NCBI GenBank assembly: GCA_001692895.1
Contig: KV748182.1
Location: forward strand, 682,001-746,000
Reading direction: 5' to 3'
Source: Cenococcum geophilum 1.58
Taxonomy: Eukaryota > Ascomycota > Dothideomycetes > Gloniales > Gloniaceae
Length of the DNA: 64,000 nucleotides
Both the position numbers and the translations under genes were made by a program. The notes under the pieces are model-generated. The model saw only the letters and a program-made list of their open reading frames with translations. It made no database searches and had not been told where the DNA came from. Positions 18,791-64,000 of the stretch are shown one piece after another (position 1 is the stretch's first letter; every line of letters starts with the position of its first letter).

Positions 18791-19216
18791 TATTACGGAC
18801 GCTTTAAGTACAATGTTATAACTACTTAGAGAAGAGTCGGAAGAAGCTAGTTAGTTAATTTAGGCACGGTCTAGGATAGAGCCGATAGAGCTATATAACG
18901 AGGAATAGTAACTAAGGTTATATAACGTAATCTATATAATCTATATAATCTGTATAATCCGTAATAGAGTAGATAGAGTATATATACATTATATATAAGA
19001 AGGATTTTATAGGAGTACGGTTGTGTATTTAAGGACCCTTAGTCCCTACCTAGATAGTTCCTTCCTTATAGTAATTCTCAGAATATAATTAGAGTTAATC
19101 TATTAGGCAACCACTCTACTAGTTATTATTACGTTGTTAACTTTACTTTATATTACCTATACACCTAGCCTATTAATAAGCCTATCGTAGTACTTGCTAC
19201 AAGGTTCCGTTATACA
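18791..19216 (+). repeat. Element B 5' LTR
   Basis: Starts tattacggacgc (TGTTACGGACGC) and ends ggttccgttataca; the last two bases are uncertain. It contains short tandem repeats built on tataatct near 18,930-18,962 that recur in its partner at 42,060-42,105. It matches the minus-strand LTRs of element C better than the LTRs of the host array. Confidence 0.88.
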
Positions 19217-19884
19217 ATTACTACCTAGTTATAATATTAAATACAAAAAGTTAAATAACATGCCACTAAAAGCAGCCACTATAACGCCATTAACGGCGGC
19301 AACTACTTCGAGATTAGGAAACGACACTAGTATAGTAGACACTAACTTATAGCAACCTATAACGGTTGGACAGTTATAAAAAATAGTTAACTAGTTAATA
19401 GAGAATAATGCAATATTAAAAAATAGGATTAATAGGATAGGAGCGGCGAAGATTAAGTTACTATTAATTAAGAGATTTTTAGGAGAGAGATTAAAGCTTA
19501 AAGGATTTCTTATATAAATGCACTTTAAAGTTACATAAGAAGGGGTAAAGCTACTAATACTTATAGATCGAATAGCCTATGCGGGACTATTCTTATTAGG
19601 AAGAGCACTTAAGTAGTTTAAGCCTTACCTTATAGAAATATAGGCAAACGGAATAATAACTACTAACCAAGATATGCGATTTATATTTTTAAATTAAGAA
19701 GGGTTTACGGAGCGACTTACGTAAATATTTAGAGACCTAAAATTAATAACCACGGCGGAAAGAAAACTCTAAGACATTACGTAACAAACCTTAGCAATTA
19801 AGTATACAACACAGTTCCAGACGTTAGCTATATTAGTTAAGTAGAATAATAGGGCGCTTATAGTATAGTATAAATAAAGACTTA

Positions 19885-20552
19885 GGGGTTGTTCGGTTGC
19901 ACCTCCGTTACGAATATGGAGCTCCTCCATATCGGTAAGCGCGTCAAATTTGCAAGCTATACTGTATACGGTAGTTGAAATGAGGTTCTTGGCACCGTTT
20001 CAATATGTAGCCTTCGAGCTCCCGTTCCATATTCCATATCAATCTGGAGCTCTCGTATGCACGACTTCTTGTAATACGGCGACTCCACACACTCCAATCG
20101 CGATACTGCTATCGTATTTGCGGGCCTTATATAATATTATTACCTTCGTAATTATAATAAGCTTATTTTCGGAGCGTCGCGGGCGTTGCGGGCGTCACTG
20201 TAACTCTACTACGGCTCCTATGGGAGGTGGGCAAAGGTGTAGAAAGCGTCGATCGCAGAGGGCGTTGGCCGAGCAGGAGGCTCTATTACTACACCAAAGT
20301 GGGGAGTTGCGATAGAGGCCTGGTGGCAGAGAGGGGCTCACTCGAATCGCTCACTGACGTCAATCGCGCATTGTGCGAAGTCAAATCTGGAGCCTTATCT
20401 GGAGCCTTATCTGGAGCCACCGAACAATCGTCTTTATTACAGATTTAAACGAGCCATGGTGGTAGCCGCCACTAATTACAGAACGGGCGACACTAAAAGA
20501 CGCACGGATTGAACAGTTATGAGATGGAGCCGATTTGCAACCGAACATACCC
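19885..20552. mobile_element. PIF/Harbinger-type MITE
   Basis: This 668-bp insertion in the gag of element B is much richer in GC than its surroundings. It is flanked by TTA on both sides (19,882-19,884 and 20,553-20,555). The termini are inverted: GGGGTTGTTCGGTTGCA at the left, and the complement of the right end reads GGGTATGTTCGGTTGCA (15 of 17 identical). A TTA/TAA target and GGG..TGTTCGG ends are the signature of PIF/Harbinger elements and Tourist-like MITEs. It has no transposase. The open frames here (19,950-20,448) have no recognisable domain and I regard them as chance. A 12-bp unit, atctggagcctt, is repeated nearly three times at 20,385-20,418. Confidence 0.88.
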
Positions 20553-20555
20553 TTA

Positions 20556-20964
20556 ACGTAGTTTACAAGCGAGCTGCGCACCCAAGCGAGCTGCGCACCT
20601 CAAAACTCACCAAAAAATAGAAAAATCGCACTTTAATATCTCAACAACCACTTAATAATAATTAATGCAAATTTAATAGCGGCCTATTAATGTAATAACT
20701 AACTTATATAGGAAGTATTGGAAATCTTATATAAGCGGAAGTATGTTAAATAGGAAAGTGGGGGCGGAATTGCCTCACTTTTTCTATTTAACATACTTCC
20801 GCTTATATAAGATCTCCAATACTTCCTATATAAGTTAGTTATTACATTAATAGGCCGCTATTAAATTTGCATTAATTATTATTAAGTGGTTGTCGAGATA
20901 TTAAAGTGCGATTTTTCTATTTTTTGGTGAGTTTTGAGGTGCGCAGCTCGCTTGTAAACTACGT
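20556..20964. mobile_element. Palindromic TA-target element 1 (fold-back, 409 bp)
   Basis: The whole element is one inverted repeat. The left arm from ACGTAGTTTACAAGCGAG is matched by the right arm ending CTCGCTTGTAAACTACGT with only a few changes over about 190 bp; the centre lies near 20,768. TA is duplicated at both ends (20,554-20,555 and 20,965-20,966), which fits Tc1/mariner-type integration. The left arm alone has a second tandem copy of the 17-mer caagcgagctgcgcacc (20,566-20,582 and 20,583-20,599). There is no coding capacity. The subterminal sequence from CTCAAAACTCACC to ACTTAATAATAA recurs in elements 2 and 3. It lies directly next to the MITE; their targets overlap in TTA. Confidence 0.9.
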
Positions 20965-21943
20965 TAAGGCTAAAGTCTAGGACGCGATTATCCTAAAAGA
21001 AGATGCGGATACCCTAAGGGAATTAATAGATTAAGTAATTAAGATTAACAATTGGATTTACTAAAGGGAATAGGCTAAGAGAGGCTAGAATAGAGTTCTA
21101 TAGTTATATAAGGCGTAAAGTACGTAATAACCAAAGCTAAGTTAGAAATTATAGTATAGCGCAGAGCTAATAGACCTAAGTAGTACTAAAGAAGCCTATA
21201 AGAGATAGAGTAAGAAACTATAAAAACCTAGAGGTTAAGGATCTAGTAATTATAGGACTAAGGAGTAAAGGCTAAACCAGGGATCTTAATAGCAGAAGAC
21301 GTTTAGGCAGACTCTATAGTAAAGTTAGTAGTTTAAAAATAGAGCTTATATAAATTATAGGAAATAAGGTCACTTCGTAAGGAATTATAAAAATGGTTAA
21401 AGTCACTATATAATAAAGGGAACCAAACTAGTAGAAGATATACACGTATAGAGGGATAATAGTGTACTGCGAGGAACAAAAGAATATTTAATTAGAAGTT
21501 TCGCGTTTTGTTATAATAACGTATGCTAAATTTATAAAAATACTAAATATAACGTAAGCTACTAGCTATAGGAGCCAGAATCCTTAGAATATAGGGGAAC
21601 TAACAAACTATCGCGTAGACTAGATATTAAAGATAACGAGTTTAATATAGGTAAAATATTTACAGATAATAAGGAAATAAAGGTAGCTTACTAGGAGCGT
21701 ATAAACCTTAGAGAAGTTATATTAAAAGTAGAAACTAAGACCGCTATAAAGTAAGGTTCAGTAACGGGTATTATAATACCGTTAGATACGGCATCTATTA
21801 CTTTATAAGATAAAAGGAAGAGTGTTTTATATAGACTAAGTAAGCAGATAACTGCTAGTGCTACTTTATTACTTAATAAAGGCAAAAGGCTAAAGGCTTA
21901 AGATTCTTAAGACGAGATAAGAGATAATTAAAACTCTTAAGAT

Positions 21944-22368
21944 TGTAACGGAACCTTATAGCAAGAACTACGATGGGCTTATTATTGGGCTAGGTGTGTA
22001 GGAAATGCAAGTATAAAAGTTAACAACGTAATAATAACTGGTGGAGTGGTTGCCTAACAGATTAACTCTAATTATATTCTAAGAATTACTATAAGGAAGA
22101 AACTATCTAGGTAGGGACTAAGGGTCCTTAAATATATAACTATACTCCTATAAAATCCTTCTTGTACGTAATATACGTCTTATATATAAGGTACGTAAGT
22201 TCCTCTTATTCCTCTTATTTAATATGTAGCATATTATATAACCTTGGTTACTATTCCTTATTATATAGTTTTATTGGCTCCATTTTAGACTATGCCTAAA
22301 TTAACCAACTAGCTTCTTCCGTCTCTTCTCTAAGTAGACGTAATATTGTACTTAAAGCGTCCGTAACA
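21944..22368 (-). repeat. Element C 3' LTR
   Basis: 425 bp, starting TGTAACGGAACC on the plus strand and ending GCGTCCGTAACA. The adjacent inner bases (22,369-22,390, minus-strand reading ggagggaaatag) are the polypurine tract. Confidence 0.92.
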
Positions 22369-26000: not shown

Positions 26001-29000
26001 CTACTTAGTACTATACTAACTTAGCTTATTATTACATCTTACGGCATTAAGTATCTTTAATATTAACCTGACCTATAATCTAGTTAATCCTTAGATTATA
26101 TTTCTATAACTAAGGTATACCTAATACTACCTCGTCCTATCCTAATAGTAGGATATTAAAAGACATCTTAATTTATCTTCCTTTAATAGTTATCTAAATA
26201 GGTCCTATTTTAAGATTAATAATCCCTCCTCTATAGGTTATTAGATCTCCTAAAATTATAACTAATAGGTAAGGTTACTCCTTTTATCTATAAGGTAGTC
26301 CCATTCTCTTAACTACTACTAGTAAGATATAGTTTCGCGTTACTCTACTATCTATTAGCGCTTTAAACTGCTAATCTTACTAATTAATTTATAAATTTAG
26401 GTGCCGTCCTTAAATTCCTTTAAGGGTCTAAGGCTCTACCACTAGCTCCCTCTGGTCCTATAGGCCTCTACTTTTCCTAACTATTAGCTACTTAATCCTA
26501 GTGTACTTAGCTCCCTCTTTAGCTAATATCTAGTTTACTTTTTATCTTTAATATACTATAGACACGTGTTTTCTAGGCATTTTTACTACTATTATCCGTT
26601 TAAGCATTCTTCCGTAAGGAATCTTCCTAGTTAAAGTACTAAACTTCCTTCCTCTTAGACCTCTGCTGGATGCTATTTATATATATATTTAGCATTTTTA
26701 TACTATTACTTATCCGTTATCCAGTATATCCTTATAGGGTATTTCCGATTCTTTTCCTTTAGATTCTTATATATTTTATATATATCGTCTACGCACATAA
26801 TCCATAATAACGTATAGTGTGCTAGGTGCTTTAGGTTAACTCTTAGCTCGTCTTTATCCTTAAGTTTAAACCTTTATTATGCTAATCTAAACGTTATAAC
26901 TTTATTTATAGGTACTAAGATGCGTCTTTTGCTTCTCTAGTCCTCTAAACATTCCTTTAGATCCTTTAACGTTATAATTAAGGCTCCTTTAATATATGTT
27001 ATGGCCTTCTCTATAATCGGGTGGCCCTAAATAACCTTTTCATCCAACTATATATAGAAATCTTCCTACTTATTATTATGTCTTTACCTATACCACTTTT
27101 AGTATAGCTGCTAGAGTATATACGGTCTATCCGTAAGAAAGTATCTTCTTATTACTATATTATAATAGCCCTTTATATATTATTCTTTAAACCTAGTTAG
27201 AATCCCTAGATCCTCTTTATCTTCTAGTTTAGTAAGCCACTTAGCTCTTAGTGTGCCTACTCTCGGCCTATTAGTAATTCTTTATACTAGTGCTTTGTCC
27301 TCTATACGTCCTAATATACTAAATCTCTTATTTAGTTTCTATTCTTACTATGTAATAATTCTTTACCTAAACTCTTTTATAGTTTCCTTTAGTTTGCGCC
27401 TTATACTCTAATTTTTAAAGTCGTCTTGCTTCTTAATCCTAGTATTAAACTTTTAATCTTTAGGCTAAACACTGCGTTCCCCTAGTAAGTTCTTTAGGTC
27501 TATATATTTATCTCCTAGTCTAACTGCTGTTTATATTATAGATTCTCTAGTCTATAAAGAAGCTTCTTACCTCTTACCTATAGGTGTCCTTATTTATACT
27601 CCGAAATCTTGGTCCCTTAGATTCTTTAATCCTAAGCTTACCTCTAACTTAAGCTTAGCTCCCGCCTTAGTCTAACTAGGCGTTTATAATATTCTTATCT
27701 TGTCTTAAGAGTCTTAAATCTTACTTATCTCGTCTTAAGAGTCTTATACCTATAGGAAATTCTATCCCAAGCTTATTTATATATTTCTAAACTAAGCTAC
27801 TACCCTACTCTATTAGTTTTCGTCCGTTGTGGGTCCTTAAGCTTACCTTATCTTATTTTAAGAATCTTAGTCGTCTCTTATCTCGTTTTAAGAATCTTAA
27901 GCCTTTAGCCTTTTGCCTTTATTAAGTGCTGAAGTGGTTTACTATCTTATTTCTCTTGCGTCTTATAAAGCGATAGATATTATATTTAGTGGGGTTTCGA
28001 TCCCTACTAATGTTCCCTATTCTATAGTGGAATTATCCTCTACCTCTAGTATAACATCTTTAAGGTCTACTCGCTCCTAGTAAGCGGCCCTTATTACCTT
28101 ATTATTATGGAATATTTCGCCTAGGTCGAATTTATTGTCTTTAATATCCAATCTGCGAACTAGTTCGTTAGTTCCTTTATATCCTATAGGTGCTGGCTCT
28201 TGTGGCTAATAGCTTACGCTATACTTAGCGTCCTTATAAATTTAGTATACGTTATTATAACAGAACGCAAAACTTCTAATTAAATATTCTTTTGTTCCTT
28301 ATAGTATATTATTATCCCTCTGTATATATATATCGTCTACTAGTCTTATACCTTTTACTATATAGTAACTCTACCTACTTCTATAGTCTCTAACGTAATA
28401 ACCCTGTTTTCCGTAATTTATATAAGCTCCTTCTTTAAACCATTTCTCTTGCTATGGAGTCCGCCTAAATGTCTTCTGCTACTAAGATCCCTAATTCGGC
28501 CTTTACTTCTTAAACCTTTAATTACTTAATCCTTGTCCTCTAGGTTTCTATAGTTTATTCCATTTTTTATAGGCTTCTTTAGTACTACTTAGGTCTATTG
28601 GCTCTGCGCTATACTATAGTTTTTAACTTAGCTTTTATCGTTGCGTATTTTGCGCCTTATACAACTATAGAACTCTATCCTAGCCTCTCTTAGCCTATTC
28701 CCTTTAGTAGATTTAATTATTAATCTTAATCGCCTAATCTATTAGTTCCCTTAGGGTGTCCGTATCTTCTATTAGGATAATCGCGTCCTAGACTTTAGCC
28801 TTAAGTCCCTGTTTATACTATACTATAAGCGCCCTATTATTCCACTTTACTTATATTGCTAGTGTCTAGAACTATATTATATACTTAATTGCTAAAGTTT
28901 ATTGCATAAGGTTCTGGAGTTTTCTTTCCACTATAGTTGTTTCTTCCAGGTCTCCAAATATCTACGTAAGTCGCTCTATAAATTCTTCCCAACTTAAGAA

Positions 29001-29426
29001 TATAAATCGCACATCTTAGTTAGTGGTTGTCATTCCATTTGCCTATATCTCCGTAAGGTAAAATTTAAACTACTTAAGTGCTTTTCCTAATAAGAATAGT
29101 CCTGCGTAGGCTATCCGATCCACAAGTATAGGTAACTTTGCTCCCTCCTGTAAGACCTTAAAGTACATCTGCGTAAGGAACCCTTTAAGCTTTAACCTTT
29201 CTTCTGTAAATCTCTTAATTGATAGTAGCTTAATCTTTACTGCTCCTATCCCGTTAAGTCTTTCTTTTAATACTGTATTATTAGCTGTTAGCTAGTTAAC
29301 TATTTCCTATAGCTATCCGACCGTTATAGGTTGCTATAAGTCAGTATCTGCCATACTGGTATCACCTCCTGTCCTTAAAGTAGTTGCTGCCGTCAATGGC
29401 GTCATAGTAGCTACTTTTAGTGGCAT
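23050..29426 (-). pseudogene. Element C gag-pol with chromodomain
   Basis: The start codon is at 29,426 (MPLKVATMTPLTAA). The gag zinc knuckle lies near 28,380-28,430 (INYGKQGYYVRDY, Cys mutated to Tyr) and the protease at about 26,310-26,352, where the active-site codon GAT for Asp survives (LIDS). The RT KLRLYIDYR block is near 25,690 and its catalytic motif, now YFNN, near 25,385-25,400. RNase H is at about 24,620-24,960, the integrase zinc and core regions at about 24,300-23,750, and the chromodomain at about 23,100-23,240. Stops at Gln and Trp codons inactivate it throughout, but the first 300 codons have fewer than in the outer array. Gag and pol are in different frames. Confidence 0.9.
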
Positions 29427-29468
29427 GTTATTCGACTTCTTATATTAATACTATAACTAGGTAGTAAT

Positions 29469-29895
29469 TGTATAAGGGAACCTTGTAGCAAGAACTACGA
29501 TAGGCTCGTTATTAGGCTAGGTATATAGGAAATGCAAGTACAAAAGTTAACAACGTAATAATAACTGGTAGAGTGGTTACCTAATAGATTAACTCTAATT
29601 ATATTCTAAGAATTACTACAAGGAAGGAACTATCTAGGTAGGGACTAAGGGTCCTTAAATACACAACCGTACTCCTATAAAATCCTTCTTATACGTAATG
29701 TACGTCTTATACGTAAGGTACGTAAGTTCCTCTCGTTCCTCTCGTTCAATACGTAGCACATTATGTGACCTTAGTTACTATTCCTCGTTATATGGTTCTA
29801 TCGGCTCCATCCTAGACCGTGCCTAAATTAACCAACTAGCTTCTTCCGTCTCTTCTCCAAGTAGACGTAATATTGTACTTAAAGCGTCCGTAACA
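29469..29895 (-). repeat. Element C 5' LTR
   Basis: 427 bp, plus-strand start tgtataagggaacc and end GCGTCCGTAACA. It differs from its 3' partner by scattered transitions. On the minus strand the leader continues with attactacctagttata, the likely primer-binding region, which is identical downstream of the LTR in element B. Confidence 0.92.
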
Positions 29896-29900
29896 AAGAT

Positions 29901-32900
29901 AAGATAAGGTATACCCTAGGACCTATAATGAATAGAAACCAATAGAGCAGGGCAATAGCTTAGTTTAAGGATATACAAATAAGCTTAGGATAGAGTTTCC
30001 TATAGGTATAAGACTCTTAAGACAAGACAAGTAAGATTTAAAACTCTTAAGATAAGATAGGAACACCTAAGCCTAGTTAGACTAAGGTAGGAGCAAAGCT
30101 TAAGACAGAAGTAAGCTTAGGATTAAGAATTCTATAGAACTAAGATTTTAAGACATAAATAAGGACTATTAACGAGATTAAGAAGCGAGGAGACTTTAAG
30201 GATCCACTTATAAGACGCGAAAGGAAAGAAACTATAAAGGAGTTTAGAGTAAGAATTACCTTATAGCAAGAGCAGAAACTAAACAAAAGATCTAGTATAC
30301 TAGGCCGTATAAGGGACTAAGTACCTATATAAAGAATCACTAATAGGCCTAGAATAGGCACACTAAAAGCTAAGTGGCTTATTAAACTAAAATAAGAAGA
30401 GGATTTAGGGATTCTAACCAGGTTCGAAGAACGATACATTAAAGGCTATTACAATATAGTAATAAAAAGATACTTCCTTATAGACGAGCCGTATATACTT
30501 TAGTAGCTATACCAAAAGTGGTATAGGCAAAGGCATAATGATAAGTGGGAAGATTTTTATATATAGTTAGATGAGAAAGTTATTTAAGACTACCTAATTA
30601 CGGAAAAGGCTATAAATCACATTAAAGGAGCCTTAATTATAATATTAAAGAATCTAAAGGAGCCTTAATTATAATATTAAAGGATTTAAAGGAGCGTTTA
30701 GAGGACTAGAGAAATAAAAGACGTATTTTAGTACCTATAAATAAAGTCGCGACGTTTAGATTAACATGAGAAAGGTTTAAACTTAAGGATAAAAACGAGC
30801 TAAGAGTTAACCTAAAACACCAGGCATATTATATATTAGTATAAATTATATACGTAGATAATGCGTATAATATATATAGAGCACCTAAGGATAAGTATTA
30901 AAAATACCCTATAAGGATATATTAGATAGTAGAAGAATAAAAATATAAAAATATTAAGTATATATATAGCTGGCACCTAGTAGAAGTTTAGGAGTTAAGA
31001 GACTTAATACTTTAGCTAGAAAGATTCCTTACAGAAGAATGCCTAAACGGATAATAGTAGTGAGAATGCCTAAAAAATATATATCTATAGTATATTAAAG
31101 ATAAAAAGCAAACTAAGTATTAGCTAAAGGAGGACTAAGTATAAACCAGATTAAGTAACTAATAGTTAGGAAAAGTAGAGGCCTATAAAACTAGAGGGAA
31201 CTAGTAGTAGAGCCTTAGACCCTTAAAGAAATTTAAGGATGACACCTAAATTTATAAGTTAAGTGGTAAGATTAACAGTTTAAGGTATTAATAGATAGTG
31301 GAGCAATAAGGAACTATATCTCGCTAATAGCAGTTAAAAGGATAGGTTTACCATATAGGAAAAAGAAGCACCCTTACCTATTAGTAACAATTTTAGGAGA
31401 TCTAATAACCTATAGAGGAGGCATTATTAATCTTAAAACAGGACCTATTTAGTTAACTATTAAAGGGAGATAGATTAAGATGTCTTTTAATATATTACTA
31501 TTAGGGAATAATAAGGCAGTACTAGGAATGCCTTAGTTATAGAAATATAATCTAAAGATCGATTAGGTTATAGGTTAGGTTAATATTAGAAATACTTAAC
31601 AATATAAGACGTAATAATAAGCTAAGTTAGTATAGTATTAAGTAAGAGCGACCTATAAAGAAACAGAAAAAGGACTAAGCTATATACTAAAAAGATATTA
31701 TAAGTATAGCAAGAAACTATGGTCACTAGAAAGTAAAAAGCTATTAGAGTATATAGTATAGGACTATAAAATAGAATTAAAACTAGGAATAAGTTTAAGG
31801 TTTTTTCTAATCTATAAGCTTACCAAAGAAGAAGGTAGAGCATTAAAAGAGTTTATCTAGGAAAACTTATAAAAGGGATATATTAGACTATTACAGTTAT
31901 TAGCGGGTTATCCAGTACTATTTATACTAAAGAAAAATAGTAAACTAAGGCTATATATTAACTATAGATAGTTAAACAGCATTACTAGAAAGGATAGGTA
32001 TTTTTTACCCTTAATTAGCAAAATCTAAGACAGGATAAGTAATATATAAATCTTTACAAAGATAGATCTAAGATAGGCGTACCATTAGATTAGAATTAAG
32101 GAAGGCGACAAATAAAAGGTAGCCTTTAAATTAAAGGAAAAACTATATAAACCATTAGTTATACAATTTAGGTTTATAAATATACTAGCGATATTCTAGA
32201 AATATATTAACAATATATTAGAAGAACACTTAGATAAATTTATTAGAGTATATCTTAATATTATTATTATCTACTTAATAATAAAGGAAGAATACGGGGA
32301 ATACGTTAAATAGGTCTTAAAGAGACTATAAGAGGAATAAATACTAGTAGTAATTAAGAAATACAAGTTCTTTATTAGGAAAACCAATTTTATAAAATTT
32401 ATTATTAAACTAGGCTAACTTAGTATAGATCTAAAAAAGATTAAGGCTATAGTAAATTAGTAAGAACTAGAGAACGTTATATAGTTAAAATCGTTCCTAG
32501 GGTTTTGCAATTACTATAAAAAGTTTATAGCGTAATAGTTAAAGGATATTAAACCATTTACGCGATTAATAAAGAAAAAAGAACTATAGGCATAAGCAGA
32601 GGAATAAAGGGAACTCTTTAAAAAAGTTAAAGAGTTGTTTACCTAGGAGCCAGTTCTTAAAATCTATTAACTAGGACTAGAGACGGTTATAAAAACGGAT
32701 ATATTAGACTTTATACTAGGGGTATACTTTATATAGAAATACTAAGATAGATAGCACCTAGTAGCATACTATAGTTAAAAGATAACACTACTAGAGTTAA
32801 ACTATAACATCTATAATAAGGAGTTATTAGGTATAGTTATAGCACTAAAGAAATAAAGAGCATTCTTATAAGGTATAGAGAAACTATTTATAGTTAAAAT

Positions 32901-39844: not shown

Positions 39845-40278
39845 CGGAGCACCTATGGTATGTTTACAGCCCGTTAGAAGGCCGTATGGCTCGTTATACG
39901 GTATAGGTGGAAAACGGTAGAAAGCTACGGTAGAATTTAGTAAACTCACGTAACCTGCCGAATTTTGCAGGGTGGTTAAATTAACTAATTACGATTTTCT
40001 ATCCCCGGGATAAAAAATCGCCATTGGTTCGCTTAGCACTAGCGCCTTAGCGGCCCTTAAAATCTGATTTATAGCTCATCTACTGCCCGTCAAAAGGCCG
40101 TACGGTTTATTTTACGGACCGTAAGCAGAACTTACGGCCAGCTTGGGGCACCGTTTAGAAGGCAGCCTAGACGGCACCTCAGGGAGATTTCCTATGTATT
40201 TTCCTTTATGTTCTATGGTTTTATTAAAGCAATTACGGAGGCTATATATAGGTGGTTTCATTTTTTAAGTACTGCCAG
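39845..40278 (+). other. Cop2a 3' region with an extra segment and a hairpin
   Basis: Noncoding sequence between stop and 3' LTR. Compared with Cop2b and Cop2c it carries about 190-200 extra bases (roughly 39,885-40,080) inserted between two hairpin repeats of the ggcccg...ggccgt type. This extra piece contains an inverted repeat at 39,992-40,020 (cgattttctatccc with gggataaaaaatcg). No coding frame, and the source of the insertion is unknown. Confidence 0.6.
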
Positions 40279-40546
40279 TATATAATTACAGCACCTGTTA
40301 TACTAAACGCGGGCTTACGCGTTCGGTACACCAGGTACACGTTTACGCGTTCAGTGCACCAACCACTCGCTTACGCGTCTGGTGCACTTATAAAGCACTA
40401 ACTAATTAGGGGGGAGGTGNATTAGTATATAGACCACGTAGTCTGCTTTATATAATCGACAGTCACCATCCAAACAAGCATACGATACTACACGTATTTC
40501 GTGCCCGTGGATACGACTCGCCTGTACTATTAAGTTGGTATAAACA
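40279..40546 (+). repeat. Cop2a 3' LTR
   Basis: 268 bp, beginning tatataattac (first G mutated to A) and ending GGTATAAACA, followed by the TSD ATAAT. Only three of the five ACGCGT boxes remain. The N at 40,420 falls in the GGGGAGGTG stretch. Confidence 0.92.
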
Positions 40547-40551
40547 ATAAT

Positions 40552-41215
40552 ATAATACTATAAAAAGAAATGGGTATATTACTATTTAAGGCGAATTATG
40601 GATATAAGCTAAGAACATTACTATCGCTATATTAAGTAAAGAAAATAAGTAATATAGCTAAGTAAAGAATGGAGATATTAATAAATCTTTATAAAAACCT
40701 TACGGAAATAGTAAAGACGGTATAGTAAAGGATAAAAAAGTATTATAATACTAAGAGATCTAAGGGACTAGATCTTAAGGAGGGAGATAAAGTATAGCTA
40801 CTATATAAAAATTTTAAGTGTTAATGGCTAAGCAAAAAGTTAAACTATGTTAGACTAGGACCTTTTAAAATTAAGTAAAGGATTTTACTAGTTATGTTTA
40901 AGTTAAACCTACTAGCTAAAATAAAGATCTACCCTATATAGCATATCGCAATACTAAAGCTAGTATATGGGAATATTAAGCCATTAATTTACAAAGCAGA
41001 CACGTATAAAGAATAAGAAGAAGATAAATAGTAAGTTTTAAAGATTGTTAACTATAAAGACATTGATAATAAAATATAGTATAAAGTTAAGTAGATAGGC
41101 TATACTAAGACTACCTAAAAACTACTAGAGAATTAAAAAAAACGCTATAGGAAAGGTATAGAAGTATTAGAAGAAATTAGGTTAGGTAGTATTAATAAAG
41201 AAGGATTACTAAAGA
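40552..41215 (+). pseudogene. Element B integrase C-terminus and chromodomain
   Basis: Last part of the element B polyprotein after Cop2a. It holds the integrase C-terminal GD..W region around 40,755-40,850 and a chromodomain near 41,050-41,170 (KVKQIGYTKTT-like, with Trp and Gln codons now stops). Chromodomains of this group guide insertion to methylated H3 lysine 9 chromatin. Confidence 0.85.
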
Positions 41216-41925
41216 ATAAGTCACCTAAGGGGGACCTAAAAAGAGTAGTTGCCAAACTACTTAGATCTATTTCCTTTTTAGTTAAAGAAGAATCCGTTTT
41301 TATATCACTAAGTTCCTATAAACCTTACTTTATAAGTTTTTACTCCTTAAAACAGACCTTCTTATACACCTTTTTAAGATAGATTAACTAAGCGGACGCC
41401 ACCAGACAAGACTTAAGGGCCCGTTACTAAGCATTAGCAGCCTCCTACTTAGCGTCCTAAAAATAGCGTAACTTAGTAAGAGTAATAAACAGCTTATTAT
41501 TTAGCCGCGTAGCAGCAGATTAAATATAAAACCCTAAAATAAATTAATTAGGGAACTAAACGACTATTAAAAGTAATAGGTCGCGTATATTTAGCATTAA
41601 AGACGGAGTAAATGTTACAGAACGAATAAATATTTACTTTAGTGCACTTTAAATAAAAAGACAGTTATTATAAAGATAGGTTCGCCAATATAATATAAAC
41701 TAACCCCTCTTTTAAATAACAAGAACATAGAGATAATATAATCTCACTAAGAGACAATATTATAGTAATAGTGCGAGTACGACAAGCGGTTAAAGAAGAA
41801 GAAATTACTTTAGGTATAATAAGTAATAATATTAACTAAATTAATTAGACGGATATTATACCTCTAGTAAACAACTTAGAGATATTTAGAATCTTTAAGG
41901 ATAAAGATAAAAAGGAGGGAGATAG
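41216..41925 (+). other. Element B 3' noncoding region and polypurine tract
   Basis: Homologous to 6,776-7,456 and 49,426-50,119. It ends with aaaaaggagggagatag next to the LTR. No supported reading frame. Confidence 0.75.
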
Positions 41926-42326
41926 TGTTATGGACGCTTTAAGTATAATATTATAACTACTTAAAGAAGAGTTAGAAGAAGCTAGTTAGTTAATTTAAAT
42001 ATAGTCTAGGATAAAGCTAATAGAGCTATATAATAAGGAATGGTAACTAAGGTTATATAACGTAATCTATATAATCTATACAATCTGTATAATCTATAAT
42101 AGAGTAAATAGAGTATACGTATATTACGTATAAGAAGGATTTTATAAGAGTACGGTTATATATTTAAGGACCCTTAGTCCCTACCTAGATAGTTCCTTTC
42201 TTATAGTTAATCTATTAGGCAACTACTCCACCAGTTGTTATTACGTTGTTAACTTTATTTTGTATTACCTATATACCTAGCCCATTAATAAGCCTATCGT
42301 AGTACTTACTATAAGGTTCCGTTATA
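41926..42326 (+). repeat. Element B 3' LTR
   Basis: 401 bp, start tgttatggacgc (TG kept) and end ccgttata, followed by TSD AAAGA. About 20 bp shorter than its 5' partner because of a deletion near the aatctcagaatataatta segment (around 42,200). Confidence 0.9.
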
Positions 42327-42331
42327 AAAGA

Positions 42332-42550
42332 AGTATTTATAAAACACGGAGTATTAAGTAAGATTATATTGGATAAAGACCTAAGATTTATAGCAGTATT
42401 TTAGAAGGTATTTTTAGCGGAATAAGAAGTTAGAGTAGTAACTTCTATTATATATTATCTGCAGATGGATAGATAAATAGAAAGATTAAACTAAATGCTA
42501 GAATAGTATTTAAGACATTATATTAATTACATATAGAATAATTAGGTATT
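42332..42550 (+). pseudogene. Second gypsy copy: integrase core fragment
   Basis: Continues the host integrase from 18,790. It reads VFIKHGVLSKIILDKDLRF, then the catalytic-region KVFLAE and IERLN blocks. It is 219 bp long and cut by Cop2b at 42,550 (TSD GTATT). Confidence 0.88.
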
Positions 42551-42821
42551 TGTTTGTATTAACTTAATAATATAATTAAGTTATATCCCAGGGCACAAAA
42601 TACGTATAGTATCGTATGCTCTTTGGGATGGTGGTAACTATCAATTATATTAAGTAGACTACGTAGTCTATATACTAATGCGCCTCCCCCTTAATTAGTT
42701 AGTGCTCTAGGAGTGCACCAGACGCGTAAGCGGGTGGTTGGTGTACCGAACGTGTAAACGCGTGGTTAATATACCAAACGTATAAGCACGCGGTTGGTAT
42801 AGCAGGTGCTATAATTATACA
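42551..42821 (-). repeat. Cop2b 3' LTR
   Basis: 271 bp, plus-strand TGTTTGTATTAAC to ATAATTATACA. More RIP-like changes than in the 5' LTR at 48,470; for example several ACGCGT boxes have become acgtgt or acgtat. Confidence 0.93.
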
Positions 42822-42998
42822 CTGGCGGTACTTGAAAAATGAAACCACTTATATATAGCCTCCGTAATTGCCTTAATAGAACCGTAGAACATGTAAGAAA
42901 ATATATAGGAAATCCCTCCTAAGGTGCCCTCTGGCCTGCCTTCTAAACGGTGCTTTAAGTCGGCCGTAAGTCCTGCTTACGGTCCGCAAAATAAGCTA

Positions 42999-43091
42999 TA
43001 CGGTCTTCTAACGGGCCGTAAATGTACCATACGGCCTTCTAACGGGCCGTAAATAAACCGTACGGCCTTCCGACAGGCCGTAAATAGACCG
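42999..43091 (-). repeat. Three exact-length 31-bp hairpin repeats
   Basis: Units start at 42,999, 43,030 and 43,061 and stop at 43,091. The two cleanest units hold acggcc...ggccgt inverted words (6-bp stem, 8-base loop). They lie just after the gag-pol stop (43,103 on the minus strand) in the 3' untranslated region. Cop2c has about two units near 60,690-60,755 and Cop2a has them split by the extra segment. Confidence 0.85.
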
Positions 43092-56564: not shown

Positions 56565-56566
56565 TA

Positions 56567-56950
56567 ACGTACTCCATAAGCGAGTCGGCCATACAAGCGA
56601 GCCGGCCACCTCAAAACTCACCAAAAATTGGAAAAATCGCACCTTAATATCTTGACAACTACTTAATAATAAATTCTAATATTTTAGATTTAGGCTTTTA
56701 TATATACTATATAGCTGCTATTATAGTTATATAGTATATAGTTTAGTAGTTTTTAAGATATAGCAATTTGACCTTATTTTAGCCTCTAAATAAGGCTAAA
56801 TTACTATATCTTAAAAACTACTAAACTATATACTATATAACTGTAATAGCAGCTATATAGTATATTATTAAGTGGTTATCGAGATATTAAGGTGCGATTT
56901 TTCCAATTTTTGGTGAGTTTTGAGGTGGCCGGCTCGCTTGTAAAGTACGT
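56567..56950. mobile_element. Palindromic TA-target element 2 (384 bp)
   Basis: An inverted repeat whose arms are the same element design as copy 1: outer ACGTAC, then ACAAGCGAGCCGGCC, then the conserved CTCAAAACTCACC...ACTTAATAATAA block, then a different core (a tatagctgctattatag-type stretch and a second inverted section centred near 56,785). TA is duplicated at 56,565-56,566 and 56,951-56,952. The left end has two aagcgag words exactly 17 bp apart and the right end has one. The host LINE reading resumes on the other side. Confidence 0.88.
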
Positions 56951-56952
56951 TA

Positions 56953-63735: not shown

Positions 63736-63737
63736 TA

Positions 63738-64000
63738 ACGTGATCTACAAGCTAGTGGCCCACATAAGCGAGTGGCCTCCCCCAAAAACTCACCAAAAAA
63801 CCCAAAAATCGTTCTTTAATATCTTAACAACGGCTTAATAATAAATATTAAAATTTATAATTAGACTTTTATACTTATTTAAAAACCTCTATTAAAGTTT
63901 TAGAGTAATTAGTTTAGCTATTATTACTATATTAAGATTTAGCTTTTAAATTTAAGCCTAATTATTATATCTTAAAAACCACTTATTAAATTACTTTAAA
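63738..64000. mobile_element. Palindromic TA-target element 3, left part, cut by the window end
   Basis: Starts ACGTGATCTACAAGC after TA (63,736-63,737). It has aagctag and aagcgag words exactly 17 bp apart, then the conserved block (AAAACTCACCAAAAAAC...CTTAATAATAA), then an arm of its own. An imperfect inverted section is centred near 63,950 (tttagagtaatt against aattactttaaa). The right arm is beyond the window. Confidence 0.8.

Follow-up and report, generated by a model that had tools for sequence, protein, structure and literature searches.

Fungal Tc1/mariner-type elements with ACGT ends and TA target sites together with their miniature inverted-repeat transposable elements (MITEs), palindromic mariner MITEs, and MITEs in which a conserved interior is combined with differing terminal inverted repeats (TIRs) are all already known. 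In Sclerotinia sclerotiorum, the passages cited here describe Tc1-Mariner elements of 1.8–2.3 kb with ACGT ends, TA sites, DDE, HTH_psq, and HTH_Tnp_Tc5 domains, and MITE derivatives, and they state that direct repeats in TIRs can serve as transposase sites (PMC4188875). The cited part of the work on mFot5 from Fusarium oxysporum presents a Fot/pogo MITE of less than 500 bp whose TIRs resemble the ends of a pogo/Fot transposon living in the same genome (PMC3599309), and Made1 is described in the relevant passages as a human hairpin MITE that is the source of hsa-mir-548 (PMC1784062). For the CMITEs of corals, the consulted section reports a conserved interior with different TIRs between families, one of which seems to descend from an autonomous transposon that has been identified (Wang et al. 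2010, PMC2872659). Here we describe a family of palindromic elements from the fungus Cenococcum geophilum 1.58, starting from three copies in a stretch of 64,000 nucleotides (contig KV748182.1 of assembly GCA_001692895.1, positions 682,001 to 746,000), which we call the window. It is part of the contig that we designate C7, and the genome searched comprises 177 Mb in 162 contigs.

The three palindromes of the window lie at TA sites (20554–20966, 56565–56952, and 63736 to past the window end; copies 1, 2, and 3, respectively), and each consists of TA-ACGT, one or two 17-bp direct repeats (iterons) at each end, a conserved subterminal block, and a core. They appear to be non-autonomous partners of Tc1/mariner transposons of the Fot/pogo type, and the iterons are probably transposase binding sites. 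From comparisons of copies across the genome, exchange of ends between body lineages is well supported, and ends also drift. We consider it probable that the element is a modular hairpin, wherein exchangeable pogo ends are carried on a shared self-complementary body that would be homogenized episodically and would then undergo transposition and decay resembling repeat-induced point mutation (RIP).

To establish the extent of the family, the genome was searched with an 18-bp pattern for the block. The pattern was matched five times in the window, where 0.04 matches are expected, and 123 + 124 times genome-wide versus 2 + 2 for the reversed pattern, which excludes chance. Copies were fetched by whole-element searches (best 40 candidates each) and from approximately 100 places listed for the block pattern. 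After we had set aside 15 loci that had been fetched twice or that repeated a place in reverse orientation, 113 loci were examined, of which 92 were delimited by the end motif and 21 were not and were excluded. Two of the former (L078 and L082) carry no block and were removed before counting. The remaining 90 copies, all of them distinct sequences of 390–449 bp, were delimited with a 330–480 bp filter and by using TA, which is therefore present by construction; when no size filter was applied, palindrome spans of 370–485 bp were found for 94 of the 113 loci. Copies 1 and 3 belong to this set (as L001 and L031), whereas the comparison of copy 2 was made apart from it. Since the block served to find many of the copies, part of its conservation reflects ascertainment; neither the core nor the ends formed part of the search pattern. 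The elements are MITEs, being short, bounded by TIRs, uniform in size, present in many copies, and non-coding. Their cores fall into class A (28 of 90) and a B-type class (62 of 90, a number that includes small variant clusters).

The excluded L078 (1049–1393) and L082 (246–664) are palindromes with TAACGT ends and different terminal repeats, and they may represent further families of this type. Other classes of element were considered for the palindromes and rejected. A foldback element was ruled out because copy 1 has a single family of direct repeats (the 17-bp iteron) and size is fairly uniform; in copy 2 there is only one imperfect 61-nt repeat (77%), which lies in the AT-rich core. The CMITE type, with its TTAA site and CCYT ends, was ruled out by the ACGT ends inside TA. 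The sequence TTAA adjoins copy 1, not copy 2.

Transposons with the same ends reside in the same genome. Candidate places for a DDE_1 transposase domain numbered 713, of which 150 were scored, and a pattern representing the MITE end was matched 60 + 62 times, versus 0 + 0 for its reversed control. Inverted pairs of such ends, 1.82–1.86 kb apart, surround DDE_1 matches in C2, C6, C17, C19, and C28, and a further DDE_1 match (C5) is accompanied by one MITE-type end. Two of these transposons, L129 (C6) and L130 (C28), whose sequences we read completely, have MITE-type ends and frames broken by stops; in the scored transposase matches the stops are chiefly TAG and TAA. Pieces of L129 matched HTH_Tnp_Tc5 (3.4e-6; a domain examined in L129 alone) and DDE_1 (4.2e-29). 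The N-terminal piece of L129 (47 aa) gave no match to HTH_psq, and a search of solved structures with one transposase piece gave no match. We also read the ends of ten further elements. Six elements (C23, C24, C36, C78, C100, and C108) were picked regardless of their ends, with a DDE_1 match length as in L129 and L130, and when end windows were placed from the position of DDE_1 only, 12 of 13 held an ACGT and iteron end. The palindromes thus share their ends and their TA site with elements carrying DDE_1 and HTH_Tnp_Tc5, as is characteristic of the Fot/pogo type. One inverted pair of the same kind of ends (G000:C56:839585-840876) is only 1.29 kb apart, which is under the 1.8-kb length of the transposons, and is a possible internal-deletion derivative.

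The sequence shared between MITEs and the 1.8-kb DDE_1 elements comprises about 46 bp per end, namely TA-ACGT, the 17-bp iterons, and CACC. Over these 46 bp, the best identity to any MITE is 0.978 for C36; 0.957 for C108, C2, and C5; 0.913 for C17, L130, and L129; 0.891 for C100; 0.826 for C23; 0.739 for C24; 0.717 for C78; and 0.674 for C19. Therefore, eight of the 12 transposons examined have a best MITE end identity of 0.89–0.98, and a match of at least 0.89 occurs for three of the six that were picked regardless of ends. A null model of shuffled letters proved too weak, since it returned p ≤ 0.001 for all 12 transposons, poor matches included. We therefore used as background all transposon–MITE end pairs, whose mean identity is 0.606, with a 95th percentile of 0.804 and a 99th percentile of 0.935. 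When different transposons are compared with each other, the best end pair has a mean identity of 0.643, and the ends of C17 and L130 are identical. The two-iteron left end of copy 2 has 0.93 identity over 46 bp to the L130 and C17 ends. In 11 transposon–MITE alignments that we chose for inspection, the match is near perfect up to the position of CACC, and similarity vanishes at or just past it.

Ends and bodies are not inherited as one unit. Among the 1736 pairs of an A-core with a B-core element, 12 have ends at least 0.93 identical on cores of 0.45–0.56 identity. Conversely, 156 of the 4005 pairs in the whole set combine core identity of at least 0.95 with end identity of at most 0.75, the lowest value being 0.40. 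The 90 copies carry 36–41 end types depending on the cut, and six of 36 or four of 41 of these are found on both cores. The end type of L130 and C17 is common to copy 2 (core B) and to L033, L035, and L036 (core A). In the comparison of L085 with L124 and L127, the cores are 0.92–0.94 identical, the ends are 0.58–0.60 identical, and these ends match two different transposons at 0.957 and 0.96–0.98. Such combinations of ends and cores form a four-gamete pattern, which in the absence of exchange requires that the same iteron pair evolve repeatedly. Because the ends match separate transposons, it is likely that the ends rather than the cores have moved, a point that the pattern of combinations by itself leaves undecided. 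Body lineages thus appear to have changed ends repeatedly and hence, we infer, the transposase on which they relied.

We then examined how the two arms of an element remain alike. With N excluded, arm identity in the 90 elements averages 0.921 within an element and 0.715 between elements, and the corresponding values by region are 0.969 and 0.781 for the ends, 0.934 and 0.593 for the iterons, 0.958 and 0.818 for the block, and 0.891 and 0.682 for the core. The terminal iterons are therefore the most variable part. Concerted change was scored on transversions only, since RIP does not make transversions. When two elements of one core class come from different subfamilies, they differ on average at 12.12 concerted transversion sites versus 0.74 arm-specific ones, with the concerted class favored in 1951 of 1962 pairs, and between cores A and B the numbers are 41.31 and 0.01 per pair (1736 of 1736 pairs). 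These concerted transversions indicate that the arms were made alike after the subfamilies had separated. Within younger groups the arms tell a different story, however. For 69 of the 90 elements, some arm has its closer counterpart in another element rather than in its own partner (the reverse holds for 19, and two are ties), and only 29 of 90 have left and right arms that group as sisters in the tree. One and the same pair of arm versions is found at several loci in each of the groups L079/L090/L097, L086/L087, L008/L012, and L109/L118/L124, and the left–right asymmetry of the central loop of core A is preserved across lineages. The inherited arm differences in many young families and the asymmetric loop together indicate that homogenization is episodic and spares the loop. 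Mismatches of C and T between arms occur at 349 of 1345 CpA sites, compared with 55 of 1042 CpC, 66 of 976 CpG, and 168 of 2044 CpT. CpA is the preferred dinucleotide of RIP. Copies decay by CpA-biased, RIP-like mutation.

These results bear on an earlier note on this DNA made from the window alone. Its three palindromic insertions at TA were borne out, although the coordinates it gave omit the flanking TA; its suggestion to search the genome by the block confirmed the family, with the reversed pattern as control; and the Tc1/mariner-type element with the same ends that it proposed to look for as an autonomous relative is present in the form of the 1.8-kb DDE_1 elements. Other claims require revision. 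Arm interiors, which had seemed freely variable, fall into two main core classes, with the most variable part being the terminal iterons, and exchange affects chiefly the ends that bear these iterons. The idea that arm sequence is replaced while both arms stay alike agrees with the finding that subfamilies differ in both arms together, but gene conversion between arms, as an ongoing process, is unsupported in the many young families wherein arm differences are inherited. One observation named as contrary to the proposal, a common core with independently diverged arms, was found in part, as far as the common core is concerned; the arms did not just diverge independently of each other. The other, that the palindromes are artefacts of assembly, is argued against by the recurrence of the same arm-specific differences, and hence of asymmetric arms, at different loci.

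The route of exchange that we infer is DNA repair. Exchange would take place during repair of the break or gap that remains after excision of a transposon or MITE, with a template switch near the short sequences held in common, ACGT and CACC. Self-complementarity of the body would then let the new strand copy its own arm, or let strands from both sides pair, such that both arms would become alike in a single event at the birth of a subfamily. Afterwards, the element would multiply by cut-and-paste, during which arm differences are kept, and would decay by CpA-biased (RIP-like) mutation. The near-identical arms of some copies and the retained loop fit this repair route. We also suggest, with more reservation and as somewhat less than an even prospect, that the palindromic body itself is an adaptation, since a single round of repair, starting at either end or at both ends of any pogo transposon, could copy into the body, pair with its mirror image, and yield a complete element with those ends on both sides. 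If this is true, the body would be a general-purpose parasite able to change transposase hosts in a single step, and it may have done so dozens of times in this genome.

Several observations weigh against this account. The end identity of same-core pairs is a broad continuum rather than two clean classes, and Mantel correlations of ends with core (0.272 for A, 0.164 for B) and of ends with block (0.342 and 0.282) are weak and positive, which together indicate that gradual change of ends also happens; part of the change in ends may therefore be gradual co-divergence. For three of the 12 transposons, no MITE end in our sample exceeds 0.80 identity, and C23 is intermediate, and the identities of 0.913 (C17, L130, and L129) and 0.891 (C100) lie under the 99th percentile of the background. 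Those copies that were found by the block pattern are biased toward block conservation; N bases, present in 20 of the 90 elements at up to 46 each, hide parts of some young copies; and the pairs compared for concerted change have elements in common and are not independent. Among 56 close pairs, arm-shared differences (285) exceed concerted ones (112) overall, but outside the loop the numbers are 100 and 111. Many of these concerted sites outside the loop come from sister lineages, such as L041/L043 versus L042/L044/L047. Finally, the repair intermediate, binding by transposase, and movement are all deduced from sequence.

If ends and transposase specificity instead drifted jointly by point mutation, with block and core kept as aids to transposition, no exchange would be needed. 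The continuum of end identity, the weak Mantel correlations, and the half-iteron AAGCGAG that is common to many iterons are in favor of such drift, and yet it demands that the same iteron pair arise independently on cores A and B for at least four end types. It also has to accommodate ends of 0.40–0.58 identity on cores of at least 0.95 in the 30 most extreme pairs listed, as well as the divergent ends of L085 and L124/L127 with their two different matching transposons, and we regard it as unlikely. A different possibility is that arm–arm gene conversion acts continuously in every inserted copy and thereby maintains the palindromes. This agrees with the concerted transversions between subfamilies, with L041/L043 and L042/L044/L047, which differ in concert at 7–9 sites and at 0 arm-shared sites, and with the seven of 90 copies in which arm identity reaches about 0.99 to 1 over readable bases (L042, L044, L046, L047, L061, L089, and L106). 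Against it stand the arm versions that are shared by separate loci and the closer kinship of some arms between elements than within them, and we judge it distinctly unlikely.

That each subfamily is an independent ordinary MITE, arising when its particular pogo transposon lost internal sequence, with the palindrome as long TIRs, would explain why ends match individual transposons, and there is precedent in the passages on the pogo-like MITE mFot5 of Fusarium, which has TIRs like its transposon (PMC3599309). The bodies argue otherwise. Block patterns allowing up to five substitutions had no match in L129 and L130, the two fully read transposons among the 713 candidate places, and BLAST comparison of seven MITE bodies with the same two gave only short, mostly AT-rich matches of at most 43 bases, the best of which had an E value of 0.001 over 26 bases. 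Of 23 transposon ends, six were too short for a check of block similarity against single-letter shuffles, and in the 17 that could be tested similarity did not exceed the shuffles except in C78 (p 0.004, uncorrected). We therefore consider separate origins by internal deletion very improbable. The least probable explanation in our estimation is that the palindromes are chiefly genes for long hairpin RNAs that feed Dicer and quelling. Copy 1 does have a predicted RNA fold of −308 kcal/mol, compared with a shuffle mean of −83 and with 0 of 100 shuffles equally stable, but any palindrome folds so well, and mobility accounts for both the copy number and the structure. The modular hairpin with exchangeable ends thus remains our preferred account.

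Within the window, copy 1 is a core A element that spans 20554–20966, including both flanking TA dinucleotides. Its left end, read directly, has two tandem 17-bp iterons (ACAAGCGAGCTGCGCAC / CCAAGCGAGCTGCGCAC; 20565–20598, + strand), whereas its right end has a single iteron (20939–20955, − strand). The block, which runs from CTCAAAACTCACC to CTTAATAATAA, lies at 20599–20661 (+ strand) in the left arm and at 20876–20938 (− strand) in the right arm, and core A of both arms occupies 20662–20875, with an unpaired center at about 20758–20779. The 175-nt arms (20583–20757 and 20780–20954) are 98% complementary around this 22-nt center, and when aligned they agree at 186 of 189 bases, with 34 gap columns that include the extra 17-bp repeat of the left arm. 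Copy 2 (56565–56952, including TA) has a core B whose best matches are 0.93–0.96. It likewise has two iterons on the left (ATAAGCGAGTCGGCCAT / ACAAGCGAGCCGGCCAC; 56576–56609, + strand) and one on the right (56925–56941, − strand), with the block at 56610–56672 (+ strand) and 56862–56924 (− strand). Its arms fall into two blocks, one of 87 nt (93%) and one of 78 nt (95%), and there is an indel close to the middle of the element; a half-versus-half alignment gives 139 of 144 bases equal with 100 gap columns, which indicates that the center is offset. Copy 3 is present from 63736 to 64000 as the left arm and part of the right, again with two iterons in its left end (ACAAGCTAGTGGCCCAC / ATAAGCGAGTGGCCTCC; 63747–63780, + strand), and its left-arm block (63781–63844, + strand) has changes. 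The full version extends to C7:746165, is 430 bp long, and has less similar arms (177 of 213); its diverged B-type core forms a small cluster of its own at a stricter cut. Core identities in gapped alignments are 0.78 for copies 2 and 3, 0.74 for copies 1 and 2, and 0.69 for copies 1 and 3, such that the separation of cores appears modest when these three copies are taken alone.

The 1:2 imbalance of iterons between arms is seen in L001, L008, L011, L017, L128, and copy 2, and the pogo elements L130 and C24 show it as well. Three tandem iterons are found at the right ends of L028 and L088, which indicates that iteron number alters in 17-bp steps.

We also inspected the insertion sites. For copy 2, all 40 of the matches listed for its joined flanks (of 1130 candidates) span query positions 1–322 at 90–92% identity; this full-length matching indicates that the uninterrupted site is common, and copy 2 is inserted at TA. 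For copy 1, no match spanning the joint was found among those listed for the joined flanks. Its flanks (20394–20554 and 20966–21126) are two different high-copy repeats and, together with the lack of a listed match across the joint, this indicates that copy 1 marks a repeat junction. The window is AT-rich with a RIP-type repeat landscape, and it has no open reading frames of 150 aa or more when introns are ignored. Larger inverted repeats are present at 26953–30661, 40070–43031, and 18985–22175, the third of which contains copy 1, and no MITE ends were seen at the outer edges inspected.

The resemblance of this family to described systems is partial in each case. Made1 is short, about 80 bp, and has one end type. 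Like the elements presented here, Made1 is a palindromic MITE of a Tc1/mariner transposon, with the palindrome near full length. The family is also like mFot5 in being shorter than 500 bp with TIRs that resemble the ends of a pogo/Fot transposon in the same genome, but mFot5 pairs one MITE with one transposon, and the part of that work cited describes no shared body with changing ends (PMC3599309). The S. sclerotiorum TIRs are without direct repeats in the section cited, whereas here at least one iteron per end was read, and usually two; likewise, the HTH_psq that is present in the S. sclerotiorum transposase contrasts with its absence from the L129 N-terminal piece (PMC4188875). In our searches of an open-access library we found no description of a palindromic MITE body with the ends of several different transposons, nor any of TIR swapping or exchange or of palindromic MITEs and their TIRs in connection with gene conversion and abortive gap repair.

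The findings address two open questions, namely the origin of MITEs whose interior is not that of any transposon and the survival of MITEs after transposase loss. They suggest that a genetic parasite is able to replace both of its ends, for mobilization by different transposases. Because body lineages occur with the ends of coexisting transposons, host switching of a non-autonomous element could be tested at each individual site, the breakpoints and the donors all being in a single genome, and two processes that are ordinarily mixed can be separated, which are the homogenization of arms at the birth of a subfamily and the later inheritance of arm differences. The nearest parallel is that of the coral CMITEs, in which the interior is likewise conserved while TIRs differ. 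CMITEs, however, are piggyBac-type elements of about 100 bp with TTAA sites and TIRs of 13–14 bp, and the account in its cited section makes no mention of palindromes or of symmetric exchange in two arms (PMC2872659); in Cenococcum, unlike in the CMITEs as described there, several end types match several distinct transposons.
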